DNA from: an uncultured Bacteroidota bacterium | GTDB taxonomy: Bacteria > Bacteroidota > Bacteroidia > Bacteroidales > P3 | Direction: 5' to 3' | NCBI GenBank assembly: GCA_902791695.1 | Contig: CADAWR010000009.1 | Location: forward strand, 82,369-146,368 | Length of the DNA: 64,000 nucleotides | In this document: piece after piece, positions 3,299 to 19,036 of the stretch | How the letters are laid out: each line of letters begins with the position of its first letter | How positions within the stretch are numbered: the first letter of the stretch is position 1 | Translations under genes and position numbers: made by a program | The notes under the pieces: model-generated | What the model was told of the DNA's origin: nothing | Database searches by the model: none | Seen by the model: the letters and a program-made list of their open reading frames with translations, nothing else

Positions 3299-5140
3299 AT
3301 GTCAGAGAATCAGATAGTTAATAAAGAGGACCTTGTGGTCCGATTTGCTGGCGACTCGGGTGACGGCATGCAGCTCAGCGGTACGCTCTTCAGCGATGCC
3401 TCTGCACTGACCGGAAACGACATTGCCACGTTCCCCGATTATCCCGCCGAAATCCGTGCCCCGCACAACACCATTGCCGGCGTGAGCGGCTATCAGGTGC
3501 ATGTGGGTAACCACATCTACTCGAGCGGCGACAAATGCGACATACTGGTGGCCATGAACCCCGCCGCCTTCAAGTCGCAGCTGAAGTGGGCCAAGAAGGG
3601 TGCCACCGTCATCGTCGACATCGACACCTTCACCGAGGAGGCTATGGAGAAGGCCGGCTACAAGGAGAACCCCTTCACCGACGAGCTGGAGCGCGCCTAC
3701 ACCATCATCAAGGCCCCCATCACCTCGTTCACGGAGAAAATCGGCGACGCTCAGGGCGTCGACAAGAAGACCGCCGACAAGAGCCGCAACATGTTCGCCC
3801 TCGGCATCATCTTCTATGCCACCCACAAGACCTTAGACCATACTTTTGCATATCTGGAGCGCAAGTTCGCCAAGAAGCCCGCTGTCATCACGCTGAACAA
3901 GGCTGTGCTGACCGAGGGTTACGAATATGCCGACAAGCTTGAGGTGATGCATTCGCACATCTTTGAGGTTGCCCACGCCGACAAGATGGAGAAGGGCCGC
4001 TACCGCAACATCACCGGTAACGTGGCCACTGCCTGGGGTCTGCTGGCAGCCAGCGAGAAGAGCGGCCGCCGCCTCTTCCTGGGCTCCTACCCCATCACCC
4101 CCGCCACCGACGTCATGGTCGAGCTGGCCAAGCACAAGAGCCTCGGCGCCCGCGTGTTCCAGGCCGAAGACGAGATTGCCGGTATCTGCTCCGCCATCGG
4201 CGCCAGCTATGCCGGTGCACTGGCCTGCACCAGCACCTCCGGCCCCGGCCTGTCGCTGAAGAGCGAGGCCCTGGGTCTTGCCGTGATGACCGAGCTGCCG
4301 CTCGTGGTCGTCGACGTGCAGCGTGGCGGCCCCTCGACGGGTCTGCCCACCAAGACTGAGCAGAGCGACCTCGACCAGGCCCTCTACGGCCGCAACGGCG
4401 AGGCTCCCCTGGTGGTTGTTGCCGCCTCGAGCTCGGCCAACTGCTTCTACTGGGCCTTCAACGCCGCCAAGATAGCCCTTGAGCACATGACGCCCGTCAT
4501 CCTGCTCACCGACGGCTACCTGGGCAACGGCAGCCAGCTGTTCAAGATACCGAGCATGAAGGACATGCCTGAAATCAAGCCGCGCCTGGCCAAGGAGAAC
4601 GACCCGAACTACCGTCCGTTCCGCCGCGACGAGGAGAAGTTCGCACGCGAATGGGCCCTGCCCGGCATGGCCGGCCTGAGCCACCGCGTCGGCGGCCTCG
4701 AGAAGTGCCCCGATGGTCCTCTGAGCACCGACCCGGAGAACCACGCCCTGATGACCAAGAACCGTCAGGAGAAGGTGAACCGCGTGGCCAACTACATTCC
4801 CGACCAGGAGGTCATGGGCAACCCCGACGCCGACCTGCTCGTGGTTGGTTGGGGCGGCACCAGCGGTGCACTGACCCTCGCCGTCGAGGAGATGAACAAC
4901 GAAGGCAAGAAGGTGGCCTACACCCACTTCAACTACATCTGCCCGCTGCCTAAGAACACCGGCGACATACTGCGCAAGTACAAGAAGATTGTGGTCTGCG
5001 AGCTGAACAACGGTCAGTTCTGCGGCTACCTGCGCACCCAGTTCCCGGAGTGCACCATGACCAAATACAACAAGGTGATGGGCCTGCCTTTCGAGGTTGG
5101 CGAGCTGAAAGCTGAATTTAACAGATTGTTGGAGAAATAA
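3299..5140 (+). CDS. korA: 2-oxoglutarate (2-oxoacid):ferredoxin oxidoreductase, alpha subunit
   Basis: A 613-residue fused gamma-alpha subunit of the thiamine-diphosphate oxidoreductase that decarboxylates 2-oxoglutarate (or a related 2-oxoacid) to an acyl-CoA and reduces ferredoxin. The gamma domain covers about residues 1-190 (RFAGDSGDGMQLSG near the start). The alpha domain follows, with GSYPITPATDVM near 265 and the EDEIAGICSAIGASYAG and TSTSGPGLSLKSE motifs. The length is typical for Bacteroidota. The beta subunit follows 12 nt downstream under the same promoter. Exact substrate choice cannot be read from sequence. Confidence 0.92.
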   Translation: MSENQIVNKEDLVVRFAGDSGDGMQLSGTLFSDASALTGNDIATFPDYPAEIRAPHNTIAGVSGYQVHVGNHIYSSGDKCDILVAMNPAAFKSQLKWAKKGATVIVDIDTFTEEAMEKAGYKENPFTDELERAYTIIKAPITSFTEKIGDAQGVDKKTADKSRNMFALGIIFYATHKTLDHTFAYLERKFAKKPAVITLNKAVLTEGYEYADKLEVMHSHIFEVAHADKMEKGRYRNITGNVATAWGLLAASEKSGRRLFLGSYPITPATDVMVELAKHKSLGARVFQAEDEIAGICSAIGASYAGALACTSTSGPGLSLKSEALGLAVMTELPLVVVDVQRGGPSTGLPTKTEQSDLDQALYGRNGEAPLVVVAASSSANCFYWAFNAAKIALEHMTPVILLTDGYLGNGSQLFKIPSMKDMPEIKPRLAKENDPNYRPFRRDEEKFAREWALPGMAGLSHRVGGLEKCPDGPLSTDPENHALMTKNRQEKVNRVANYIPDQEVMGNPDADLLVVGWGGTSGALTLAVEEMNNEGKKVAYTHFNYICPLPKNTGDILRKYKKIVVCELNNGQFCGYLRTQFPECTMTKYNKVMGLPFEVGELKAEFNRLLEK

Positions 5141-16351: not shown

Positions 16352-16419
16352 ACCTGACATCCATAGACACAATTAAAGACAGACACAACCCTTGCCGTCG
16401 CAAGGGCATAACAAGCACT

Positions 16420-16530
16420 TTCCTTCGGTATTTCGACCATCGTTCAACCATACTTTAACCATCGTTTAACCATATATAATGGTAGAACAAAGGTTAAACG
16501 ATAGTCGAACAATAGTAGGAAATCCGAAGG
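16420..16530. repeat. 11-nt phased palindrome, divergent copy C
   Basis: Same architecture as the other copies but different sequence: blocks TCGACCATCGT, TCAACCATACT, TTAACCATCGT, TTAACCATATA (16433-16476) run to a centre near 16476, then an approximate inverse copy. The outer CCTTCGG/CCGAAGG arms close it. It lies in the gap between the PD40-OmpA gene and the methyltransferase leader. Confidence 0.75.
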
Positions 16531-16574
16531 TACGACGAACAAAAAGGGGGCTGGAGAGGCGCCATATAAAATAT

Positions 16575-16606
16575 TTTGCCCATATAAAAAAAACTTTGTA
16601 TCTTTG
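16575..16606 (+). promoter_or_regulatory. promoter of the methyltransferase/DUF262-HNH unit
   Basis: TTTG at 16575-16578, a 20-nt spacer, and TATCTTTG at 16599-16606. The start site should fall near 16613, leaving a leader of about 300 nt before the methyltransferase ATG. Confidence 0.75.
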
Positions 16607-16622
16607 CACTCCGAAAGACACT

Positions 16623-16910
16623 GGCTTATCGAGAGAGGATAAGCCATATAATATTAACAAAGCATTACTATTATTTCGCGTTTAGCCAAGAGCCTCGGAA
16701 ACTTATTGGATATAAATAGCTGAAATAATCAGTATGGTGTTATGGATGAACGCCATATGCAAGGAAATAAGTATGCCACACTTAGGTGTAGGCTCTTATT
16801 CTTGCATAGAGGTATCCATCCGAGGCCGCCTCGCTAAACGCAGTAAGAAAACCGCACCTTTTCTTATTGCCTCTTGCCGATTGATAGCAATGCGTAAAAG
16901 CTATCAAACA
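16623..16910 (+). ncRNA. highly structured leader RNA upstream of methyltransferase
   Basis: No known riboswitch class was recognised. Perfect or near-perfect helices fill the leader. There is a hairpin 16623-16630/16638-16645. A closed domain at 16678-16841 has outer stem 16678-16686/16833-16841 (9 bp), 16692-16698/16820-16826 (7 bp) and 16707-16712/16813-16818. Inside the domain are hairpin 16720-16723/16729-16732, hairpin 16733-16741/16749-16757, and a long arm 16756-16763 plus 16767-16771 pairing with 16801-16808 plus 16795-16799, capped by 16775-16781/16786-16793. Two more hairpins follow: 16844-16851/16859-16866 and 16881-16888/16900-16907. The last ends three nucleotides before the ATG. 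It may be a cis-regulator of the downstream genes or a free RNA. Confidence 0.7.
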
Positions 16911-17942
16911 ATGGCAGGAAACAAAAGTCTCAACGCGGCCATCAAGGCCAAACAAGATGAATTCTACACACAGATAAACGATATCAGTAACGAACTGAAA
17001 CACTACCGCAACCACTTCTGCGGCAAAGTGGTATTCTGTAACTGCGATGACCCTTACGAAAGTAATTTTTTCAAATACTTTGCCCTTAACTTTAACAGTC
17101 TTGGGTTAAAGAAGCTAATTGCCACTTGCTATGACGGCTCACCAGTAATGGGTAATGAGTTACTACTGCAATTCGATACGCCTAATTGTGAACCTAAAAA
17201 AATTGCTTACAAGGTGGAGATAACCGAAGTTGACGATTACAACGGTGACGGAGCAGTAAATCTCGCAGATGTAGCTTATTTATTACAAAACGATAAGAAT
17301 GTTCTATCTCGCCTTAAAGGAAATGGAGACTTCCGAAGTCCCGAATGCGTGGAACTGCTTAAACAAACAGATATTGTTTGCACTAACCCACCATTCTCAC
17401 TATTCCGCGAGTATGTGGCGCAACTGATGAAATATGAAAAGAAGTTCCTGATAATAGGAAATCAAAACGCTCTTAAATACAAAGAGATTTTTCCCTTGAT
17501 AATGCGTAATCAACTATGGCTCGGCAACAAATCTGGGGACATGAGCTTCCAAGTACCAGATTCTTATGAAGCACGCGAAACAAGATACTGGCAAGATAAT
17601 AGTGGGCAAAAATGGCGTAGCCTTGGGAACATTTGCTGGTATACAAATCTTGATCACAAAAAAAGACATGAGTTATTAGACCTTATTAGAGAGTATTCTC
17701 CGAAAGAATACCCCACATATGATAATTATCCAGCAATAAATGTAAATAAATTTGCAGATATTCCTTGTGACTATGATGGAATAATGGGAGTACCAATAAC
17801 CTTTATTGATAAATATAATCCAGACCAATTTGAGATTTTGGGTGTGCTTAATCATGGCTGTGATTCTGAGTTCGACCTTGCAAAGCCTACAATCAATGGG
17901 AAAGACCTTTATTCAAGAATATTAATCCGTAAAAAGAAATGA
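16911..17942 (+). CDS. EcoRI-type adenine-specific DNA methyltransferase
   Basis: A 343-residue N6-adenine methyltransferase of the M.EcoRI family. The N-terminal AIKAKQDEFYTQ is followed by VVFCNCDDP (41-48), the AdoMet loop region ATCYDGSP, and the catalytic TNPPFSLF at 158-165. The ATG at 16911 is chosen because the resulting N-terminus aligns with M.EcoRI; the 59 open codons upstream overlap the structured leader. An acidic loop NGDGAVNLADV (111-121) looks like an EF-hand. The DNA is AT-richer than its neighbours, suggesting horizontal acquisition. The next gene overlaps by 4 nt and encodes an HNH nuclease, so the pair is probably a restriction-modification unit. Confidence 0.88.
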   Translation: MAGNKSLNAAIKAKQDEFYTQINDISNELKHYRNHFCGKVVFCNCDDPYESNFFKYFALNFNSLGLKKLIATCYDGSPVMGNELLLQFDTPNCEPKKIAYKVEITEVDDYNGDGAVNLADVAYLLQNDKNVLSRLKGNGDFRSPECVELLKQTDIVCTNPPFSLFREYVAQLMKYEKKFLIIGNQNALKYKEIFPLIMRNQLWLGNKSGDMSFQVPDSYEARETRYWQDNSGQKWRSLGNICWYTNLDHKKRHELLDLIREYSPKEYPTYDNYPAINVNKFADIPCDYDGIMGVPITFIDKYNPDQFEILGVLNHGCDSEFDLAKPTINGKDLYSRILIRKKK

Positions 17943-19036
17943 AAATAGATCTAACACAAGTAACCATCGGCGAGTTGGTGGAAGGCTACGCCGACAATAG
18001 TGCCACAGAAGAAGGCATTGTGGGATATGGCGGACGTCTGAACATTCGCCCCAAGTATCAGCGCGAGTTCGTATATGACGAAAAAAAACGCAACGCCGTG
18101 ATAGATACGGTATGGAAAGGTTTTCCCCTCAACGTGATGTACTGGGTGCGCAACGAAGATGGTAACTACGAGTTGCTTGACGGACAACAGCGCACAATCA
18201 GCATCTGTCAATTTGTTTGGGGCGAGTACCTAATGGAACTGGATGGCAAGCTAACCAATTTTGATGGTCTGCGGGGGTTACAGAAGCGTATAACAGACTA
18301 CAAACTACAGGTATACATCTGTGAAGGCACTCCAGAGGAACAAGTCGACTGGTTCCAAATAATCAACATCGCAGGTGAGAAATTAACTACACAGGAAATG
18401 TATAATGCCATATACAACGGTCCGTGGATTAACCATGCCAAACGACGCTTCAGCAAGACAAATTGTGTTGCACAACAACTAGGCAAAGACTACATGAGCG
18501 GTTCGCCAATACGGCAGGATTACCTCGAAACCGTGCTTGGGTGGATATCAAAGGGAAAAATAAGAGAGTATATGGTTGAACACCGATTCGACGAAAACTG
18601 CGATGAACTGTGGCAATACTATCAGGATGTAATCCATTGGGTTGGGACTCATTTCACCGATAATCGTAAAGAAATGAAAGGTGTACAGTGGGGCGATATG
18701 TACAACATGCACAAGGACGATCCATTCAAAGAGAGTGAATTACGAGAGAAGGTAGATAAGCTAATGAAAGACAGTGACATTAAAAAGAAAAGCGGCATAT
18801 ACTGGTATGTGATGGACGGCGACGAGCGGCACCTTGACCTTCGAGCCTTCGACGACAACACGAAAAGAGAGGTCTATGAACGACAGCTTGGCATTTGCCC
18901 TGTTTGTGGAAAACATTTCGCCATCGAGCAAATGGAAGCCGACCACATCACCCCATGGTGCCAAGGTGGCCGCACAACTGCCGACAACTGCCAGATGCTT
19001 TGCAAAGAGTGCAATAGACGCAAATCGGGCAAATAA
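17939..19036 (+). CDS. DUF262 domain protein with C-terminal HNH nuclease
   Basis: A 365-residue protein. The N-terminal DUF262/ParB-like domain has PKYQREFVYD near 39 and the DGQQR nucleotide motif at 81-85. The C-terminal HNH domain has zinc-type C320/C323 and C355/C358 with catalytic-type D335-H336, N350 and N359. DUF262 with HNH is the arrangement of nucleotide-dependent restriction enzymes such as GmrSD-, BrxU- and SspE-like proteins. The start overlaps the methyltransferase stop by 4 nt (ATGA), so the two are translated together. Likely role: restriction partner, cutting DNA that lacks (or carries) a modification; the polarity cannot be read from sequence. Confidence 0.85.
   Translation: MKIDLTQVTIGELVEGYADNSATEEGIVGYGGRLNIRPKYQREFVYDEKKRNAVIDTVWKGFPLNVMYWVRNEDGNYELLDGQQRTISICQFVWGEYLMELDGKLTNFDGLRGLQKRITDYKLQVYICEGTPEEQVDWFQIINIAGEKLTTQEMYNAIYNGPWINHAKRRFSKTNCVAQQLGKDYMSGSPIRQDYLETVLGWISKGKIREYMVEHRFDENCDELWQYYQDVIHWVGTHFTDNRKEMKGVQWGDMYNMHKDDPFKESELREKVDKLMKDSDIKKKSGIYWYVMDGDERHLDLRAFDDNTKREVYERQLGICPVCGKHFAIEQMEADHITPWCQGGRTTADNCQMLCKECNRRKSGK

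Follow-up and report, generated by a model that had tools for sequence, protein, structure and literature searches.

The leader RNA and the genes behind it

The window, a 64,000-nt stretch of DNA, contains a restriction-modification (R-M) unit of two genes. The first gene (16911-17942, plus strand) encodes an EcoRI-family adenine methyltransferase (PF13651, E 2.6e-147; PADLOC MTase_II). The second (17939-19036, plus strand) overlaps it by 4 nt and encodes a DUF262 (GmrSD_N)-HNH nuclease, identified by the Pfam domains GmrSD_N and HNH and called REase_II by PADLOC. This protein also has weak NCBIfam matches, to the HNH part alone. The closest relatives of the methyltransferase among the best 80 of 569 loci are from Bacteroidales of ruminant guts. 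An M.EcoRI-family/DUF262-HNH unit with a structured leader RNA had been proposed in the initial annotation, and the Pfam assignments (PF13651, GmrSD_N, HNH) and the analysis below confirmed it.

The RNA studied here is the leader in front of the methyltransferase gene. Its functional unit spans 16662-16907 on the plus strand, and its 3' limit is 3 nt upstream of the start codon. The window genome contains a single copy. The 164-nt domain at 16678-16841 folds at -67.3 kcal/mol, compared to -38.65 ± 4.08 kcal/mol in 200 dinucleotide shuffles, none of which is as good (z -7.0). The whole leader (316 nt) has a z of -7.15, and none of 100 shuffles is as good. These values bear out the earlier impression that the complementary segments are beyond chance, and the helices named in the initial annotation were found where it had placed them.

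The domain is closed by P1, in which 16678-16686 pairs with 16833-16841, as indicated by folding and covariation. P2 (16692-16698 with 16820-16826) and P3 (16707-16712 with 16813-16818) are located inside it. Folding also predicts a small hairpin (AUGGUGUU/AACGCCAU, 16734-16756). A long arm with an apical hairpin occupies 16757-16807. Upstream of P1 is the 5' element GCAUUACUAUUAUUUC (16662-16677), which is near-invariant in type 1 leaders, defined below. It can pair either inward (helix a) or with a 3' element (helix b). Its internal partner is located at 16722-16734, and the resulting pseudoknot helix a (GAAAUAAU plus AGUA), supported by the swap tests below, crosses P1. Downstream of the domain is hairpin H3 (GCAGUAAGAAAA/UUUUCUUAUUGC, 16840-16870). 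The 3' strand of the arm (16785-16800) also pairs with 16842-16858 to form helix d, which crosses P1 as well, so that the 5' strand and loop of H3 are an alternative partner of the arm. The start-codon hairpin c (UUGAUAGC/GCUAUCAA) is located at 16881-16907. The 3' element, which is the partner in helix b, corresponds to the 5' half of this hairpin (16882-16893 with the loop); when it pairs with 16900-16907 instead, hairpin c results.

The extent of 164 nt originally given to the RNA is thus too small. The structure is real, but both the 5' element (16662-16677) and the start-codon hairpin (16881-16907) have to be counted in, which extends the functional unit to 16662-16907. Two of three hairpins first described as flanking, 16844-16866 (within 16840-16870) and 16881-16907, are integral. 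The third, 16623-16645, is instead a variable 5' hairpin (UGGCUUAUC/GAUAAGCCA, 16622-16646, plus strand) in the gap between promoter and domain, recognized by direct reading and folding. Some other leaders have a different hairpin at the equivalent site, for example GCGCAAAGCGUUGCGC.

Homologous leaders fall into two types

Relatives of the methyltransferase were gathered in a scan of 84,980 species genomes, and the best 80 of 569 loci were used. The initial annotation had advised collecting homologous leaders upstream of M.EcoRI-family genes. With a single-sequence nhmmer profile (E<0.2, window copy excluded), they were found in 40 of these best 80 of 569 loci, with matches ending at most about 100 nt from the methyltransferase start. 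Seventeen more Bacteroidales loci without an nhmmer match were read by eye; L124, which is near a contig end, was left out. In 12 of the 17 (L058, L060, L064, L066, L068, L076, L086, L088, L105, L109, L118 and L121) this reading indicated a second type of leader. Type 2 has almost no sequence in common with type 1 and the same layout and topology. In the other five (L067, L070, L074, L079 and L080) neither type was seen by eye. L015, from a viral collection, appears intermediate by eye and matches the type-2 model with 39 bits.

Each type has a conserved core, which in type 1 includes conserved unpaired letters, and little sequence is common to both. In contrast, most metabolite riboswitches share primary sequence across their members. 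In type-2 methyltransferase leaders, the start codon itself is located inside hairpin c (GCGUAUGG). A search of the window genome with the type-2 model found no match.

A long, strongly folding methyltransferase leader unlike types 1 and 2 is common to L077 and L079.

Covariation supports the structure

RNAalifold on the raw 41-row MAFFT alignment returned one helix only. This alignment was judged to be at fault, and subgroups (A1-A3) were therefore aligned apart; six of the 41 leaders were dropped by an end rule, and L089, L113 and L092 also remained outside. In A1, which was built without structure, double changes are present in 15 of 27 predicted pairs.

The larger alignment A5 comprises 75 type-1 matches (74 distinct), and the structure scored in it consists of P1, P2, P3 and the start hairpin. 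It was aligned to a model containing these helices and leans towards them; helices a, b and d are absent from the model. In A5, 95.2% of 1873 cells are paired, compared to 77.8% in column shuffles, and 26 of 27 pairs are changed on both sides (303 cells). None of 500 shuffles is as high on any of five measures. When the structure is slid by 1-3 columns, just 32-41% of cells are paired. P1 (four pairs counted) has 97.9% of cells paired and double changes in 4/4 pairs, P2 99.7% and 8/8, P3 85.5% and 7/7, and hairpin c 96.6% and 7/8 in the 75 type-1 rows. For type 2 (43 matches, 42 distinct), 93.4% of cells are paired and 38 of 45 pairs are doubly changed, in an alignment that leans to its own model. 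Covariation, on which the initial annotation had staked the structure beforehand, is thus present.

Two pairings are predicted to compete at the start codon

An alignment-free swap test, in which each leader's own partner segment is compared with partners from other leaders, was applied to helices a, b and d. The first test used 43 methyltransferase leaders in four groups, permuted within group, and the second the 75 type-1 leaders. In the first, the number of 2000 permutations as low as the real pairing was 2 for helix a, 0 for c and 0 for d. Support for helix b was weak here, with 52 of 2000 within-type permutations as low. In the second, the numbers were 0 for a, 2 for b and 0 for d, again in 2000. 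Helix d is the strongest, with an own mean of -19.3 kcal/mol versus -14.9 kcal/mol for same-group swaps in the 43 leaders and a z of -14.4 in the 75. Its partner in H3 is the 5' strand and loop in type 1; type 2, by eye, uses chiefly the 3' half. The alignment model for type 2 included helix b, for which 90.9% of cells are paired and 9/9 pairs are doubly changed.

Two control pairings were null, 5' element with H3 (z +0.5) and internal segment with 3' element (z +0.8). Two others were expected to be null but were not, 5' element with the arm (z -6.8) and internal segment with H3 (z -4.1), probably because the segments overlap true partners or share composition. The swap test is therefore not clean for every segment.

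These data support a domain body, P1-P2-P3, tied by two pseudoknot helices. At the sequence level, the strand exchange is conserved, with helices b and c predicted to compete for one strand at the start codon. In nested folding of type 1, c exceeds 0.5 in 63 of 75 leaders and b in 7 of 75. With c so far ahead, the energies by themselves favor c, and the conservation of two states applies to the sequence.

Two folds trapped during transcription could give on and off messages in a bet-hedging manner, with no ligand. The conserved, mutually exclusive helices fit such a bistable RNA, and the genes led include R-M and envelope enzymes, classes known to be phase variable. However, the conserved core and its conserved unpaired letters exceed the needs of a bare bistable hairpin. 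This explanation appears unlikely.

The RNA is probably the 5' part of an mRNA

By direct reading, a Bacteroidetes-type promoter (TTTTG ... TAtcTTTG, the latter at 16599-16606) is located at 16574-16606 on the plus strand. TAnnTTTG is the Bacteroidetes -7 motif. Of 75 homologues, 43 have it no more than 110 nt upstream of the 5' element, mostly at a distance of 43-92 nt, compared to 6 of 75 for a control stretch. In 73 of 75 homologues, an ATG-initiated frame of 60 codons or more begins between -13 and +60 nt from the RNA end, and in 69 it does so between -4 and +8 nt. This placement supports the RNA being transcribed as the 5' part of an mRNA from the promoter just upstream.

No terminator-like site was found on the sense strand of the leader in the window or in L237, the two loci scanned. 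For the window leader this points to translational control. An intrinsic-terminator attenuator, by comparison, has a sense-strand hairpin and U tract before the gene, found in neither locus. Features of a riboswitch were found at the level of sequence: a cis position in the 5' leader, a covarying fold and mutually exclusive pairings at the start codon.

The leader could also be the source of a separate RNA, processed from it to act in trans or as an RNA antitoxin by binding a protein or another message. There is a precedent: PMC12373285 describes the AbiF-associated ncRNA of C. difficile (RCd22) as acting in cis and in trans. Yet the 3' hairpin of the present RNA adjoins the start codon at a nearly constant distance, there is no sense-strand terminator-like site in the window or L237, and the genes led are completely different between loci. 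We consider a trans-acting product very unlikely.

Upstream of the leader promoter, in the stretch that separates it from the preceding gene (16400-16560), is a long imperfect inverted repeat with 52-nt arms that are 73% complementary. Similar stretches recur in the genome (nine matches including the window's own), which makes it look like a MITE-like repeat.

In L078 a tRNA gene (4630-4703) is located about 46 nt upstream of the RNA, and in L191 (1358-1431) about 69 nt. This suggests tRNA-linked insertion of the leader cassette at these two loci.

The class leads many defense genes and some envelope genes

Whole genomes were searched, without regard to gene content, with models for type 1 (R1), type 2 (R2) and a broader type 1 (R3). 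A cut-off of E<=1e-8 was used throughout the tally and each place was counted once. The 88 places in Bacteroidales, given as raw counts with several assignments weak or by eye, comprise 32 before PF13651, 33 before other R-M or defense genes, 5 before envelope genes, 6 before HTH-like genes and 12 without class (L244, L247, L248, L252/L270, L266, L267, L269, L288, L299, L302, L249 at a contig end, and G371:C21). Thus 65 of the 88 places lead R-M or defense genes, 32 of them the PF13651 methyltransferase. Of all genes in a genome, those for R-M make up a small share. The annotation of the RNA as belonging to one M.EcoRI-family/DUF262-HNH unit was right for this locus, but the class serves many defense genes and some envelope genes.

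R1 gave 35 matches in 23 of 393 genomes of the order, 20 directly before PF13651 and 15 before other genes. At E<=1e-8 there are 30 of the 35, comprising 19 PF13651, 6 other R-M or defense and 5 envelope. The R-M and defense genes led by R1 matches are an N6_N4 methylase with a PADLOC restriction enzyme (L186/L224), a D12 methylase (L189), a methylase-like gene recognized by eye, with no Pfam or PADLOC match (L195), Tsp45I followed by a gene that is methylase-like by eye (L197), a ResIII helicase (L203), MmeI (L205, L220), and N6_N4 methylases followed by a helicase-like gene, type III-like by eye (L222, L223). The envelope genes encode sulfatase-family membrane proteins (L187, L196 and L191, the last with a sub-threshold EptA match), an Acyl_transf_3 protein (L188) and a GDSL hydrolase (L200). 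In L221, a small HTH protein is encoded 40 nt downstream. Below the tally cut-off for R1 are L220, L148/G315:C25 (PF13651), L221, L222 and L223.

In the same 393 genomes, R2 has matches in 56. The 27 at E<=1e-8 precede R-M or defense genes (15), small HTH-like genes (3) and genes without class (7), and two are unreadable. The genes led encode HSDR_N with an N6 methylase (L235, L250), MmeI (L236, L254), DarT (L237), an HKD+Snf2 helicase (L239), N6 methylases called IIG by PADLOC (L240, L253), C5 methylases (L241, L268), N6_N4 methylases (L265, L271), a PADLOC MTase_II (L251), a protein with a sub-threshold MmeI_Mtase match (L242), PF13651 (L246) and small HTH-like proteins (L238, and by likeness L243 and L245).

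The search of the window's genus covered 29 genomes, in which R3 has 18 matches at E<=1e-8: 13 PF13651 including the window, three Eco57I-type methylases, one ResIII and one without class. R2 has 14, namely nine R-M or defense, three HTH-like (L305 without a Pfam match) and two without class. The nine are of the kinds D12, N6, N6_N4, Mrr+ResIII, ResIII and two MmeI_Mtase-like, one of these below the Pfam cut-off. Also outside the tally are R2 matches above the cut-off E value and, in the genus, five such R3 matches. An Acyl_transf_3 gene (L319) is among the weaker genus matches. Among the weaker R2 matches that were read, L272-L275 clearly represent the same RNA, and others, located before genes for secreted proteins, may have arisen by chance.

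PF13651 is present in 54 of the 393 order genomes, and 21 of the 64 matches listed, some of them gene fragments, have an R1 or R2 leader. The leader is therefore common, not obligatory. In 326 genomes of the phylum, R3 matched the window's own genome only, so type 1, the type covered by this model, looks restricted to the order. In viral contigs, neither of the two 5' elements was found as an exact pattern. The exact type-1 5' element is present in 11 genomes. In 4 of these (L135, L136, L142, L144) it was taken as chance since no model match is significant: L135 scores E 1.9, and the other three have no match up to E 10.

Small HTH-like proteins (68-97 aa) are encoded at or close behind the RNA in L238, L243, L245, L221 and L303-L305. 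Such recurrent partners might be regulators of the same circuit.

Several type-2 matches are located close to the beginning of a contig, at most a few hundred bases in (G055:C4, G171:C223, G079:C24 and C36, G147:C5 and C6, G371:C21 and G412:C286), perhaps reflecting assembly breaks at repeated or invertible DNA.

In L195 / L230, the methylase-like gene led is apparently frame-shifted near its start, by eye, and the leader is intact.

Leaders are exchanged between R-M alleles

On the trees of the methyltransferase and of the nuclease, each covering 48 loci, the leader subtypes require 21 changes apiece. Shuffled labels give means of 28.7 and 28.5, and none of 200 shuffles is as low. The subtypes are thus clustered on both protein trees, yet often exchanged. 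For example, L083 has a type-1 and L086 a type-2 leader, and their nucleases are about 0.02 substitutions per site apart. Conversely, L089 and L093 have near-identical leaders and clearly different R-M protein pairs. From these comparisons, the leader appears to behave as an exchangeable control cassette.

The partial correlation between leader and nuclease distances, given the methyltransferase, is weak (0.165, permutation 0.001); that between leader and methyltransferase distances, given the nuclease, is 0.016 (permutation 0.38). A tie of the RNA to either protein was rejected on this weak distance test and the 21 subtype changes on each tree.

The methyltransferase or nuclease might bind its own leader to repress translation and set the ratio and timing of both enzymes; the leader does abut the gene start directly in nearly all homologues. 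The weak nuclease correlation and the clustering of subtypes on both trees also favor such autogenous control. However, the same RNA leads different families (MmeI, DarT, sulfatase, acyltransferase and GDSL), and leader types swap between near-identical proteins such as those of L083 and L086, which makes it quite improbable.

The initial annotation also raised the possibility that the RNA is a component used by the DUF262-HNH protein, and methyltransferase/DUF262-HNH pairs in Bacteroidales do often have the leader. A part in the nuclease effector is nevertheless extremely unlikely. Many unrelated genes are led, most of them without this nuclease family behind them, and leader types swap between near-identical nucleases. 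The same gene pair, moreover, has an apparent upstream gap of just 18-29 nt in L007, L013, L019, L020 and L022, as measured with mechanical frames of at least 80 codons, and there apparently lacks the leader. IscB omega-RNA and Cas9 guide RNA are likewise structured RNAs beside an HNH protein. The similarity is limited to the HNH part, and the present class is not constantly linked to one HNH effector.

Exchange of cassettes between R-M alleles and the matches at contig ends could point to a DNA-level element, an operator or the end of a mobile element, whose RNA fold is incidental. In contrast, an RNA accounts for the G-U pairs, the complementarity of the pseudoknots and the location ahead of starts on one particular strand, and we find a DNA-level element scarcely credible.

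A model for control by start-codon masking

Our best reading is that these leaders are probably a cis-acting, riboswitch-like RNA class that controls phage-defense genes by masking the start codon. A role in controlling a restriction system, one of the functions first suggested for the RNA, is likely. According to this model, the 5' element has two possible partners, one in the domain interior (helix a) and the other the 3' element (helix b), and the 3' element would pair either with the 5' element or within hairpin c, which abuts or covers the start codon. In the off state, the domain would hold the 5' element, hairpin c would form and translation would be prevented. In the on state, the domain would release the 5' element, helix b would form and hairpin c would open, allowing translation of the methyltransferase and the overlapping nuclease gene.

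Because the class leads many kinds of R-M genes, other defense genes and envelope-modifying enzymes, the domain may respond to one signal common to phage defense and envelope remodeling. More tentatively, it is possible that the RNA is an 'immunity riboswitch', in which a signal of infection or envelope attack sets translation of a regulon of unrelated defense and surface-modifying genes, carried as an exchangeable cassette.

The safe activation of R-M and other immune genes is a long-standing problem, for which the answers so far are mostly proteins. If the model is correct, a leader RNA would be a common control point for immunity in gut and rumen Bacteroidales, spanning several R-M types, DarT, helicases and envelope enzymes. 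The trigger of the RNA, once found, would tell when cells choose to arm themselves.

Comparison with known RNAs and control systems

No Rfam 15 family matches the window at the gathering cut-off, and in 18 carrier loci there are matches to two tRNAs only, both outside the RNA. This family search agrees with the original judgment that the RNA is not a known riboswitch class. Candidates up to E 10 were weak, all below gathering scores, and none in the domain was convincing. They comprise a histone stem-loop at 16618-16671, miRNA families on the minus strand at 16419-16530, and miRNA families again at 16857-16928, across the start hairpin. In open-access full text, a body that leaves supplements, preprints and most subscription papers outside, searches found no description of an RNA leader common to R-M genes. 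No passage on restriction, methyltransferase, methylase or defense was found in PMC8040213. The RNA family is apparently undescribed so far.

A leader with alternative start-codon pairing is of a kind already known. Translational riboswitches likewise are 5' leaders with a conserved domain, in which access to the start codon depends on which of two alternative pairings forms. They serve metabolism and transport, whereas the gene set here is phage defense and envelope; also unlike them, the present class has no Rfam match and consists of two sequence-unlike types with one topology. A class common to unrelated immune and envelope genes appears to be new.

Controller (C) proteins and antisense control also regulate R-M gene expression. 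These use a DNA-binding protein or an antisense RNA, whereas here a structured leader is found across R-M kinds. The AbiF/Abi_2-associated ncRNA, as described in PMC12373285, is also a conserved structured RNA that adjoins a phage-defense gene and exerts negative control. By that description it is tied to and binds one protein family, whereas the class found in the window leads many unrelated families. For the same reason, it lacks the link to one toxin family that characterizes type III toxin-antitoxin and AbiF-like RNAs.

Structured leaders outside Bacteroidales

In the Lentisphaeria loci L114, L122 and L133, the same methyltransferase has leaders that are unrelated in sequence and similar in layout by eye, with a closing stem, a 5' stretch paired to an internal stretch, and an arm paired with a downstream hairpin. 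Large structured leaders of this methyltransferase were also seen by eye in L116 and in the Clostridia loci L082 and L117. Judged from topology by eye, the class may reach beyond Bacteroidales, to L114, L122 and L133 in Lentisphaeria and L082 and L117 in Clostridia. In L082 and L117, a hairpin resembling an intrinsic terminator, again by eye, is located between leader and gene, as if control there were by termination.
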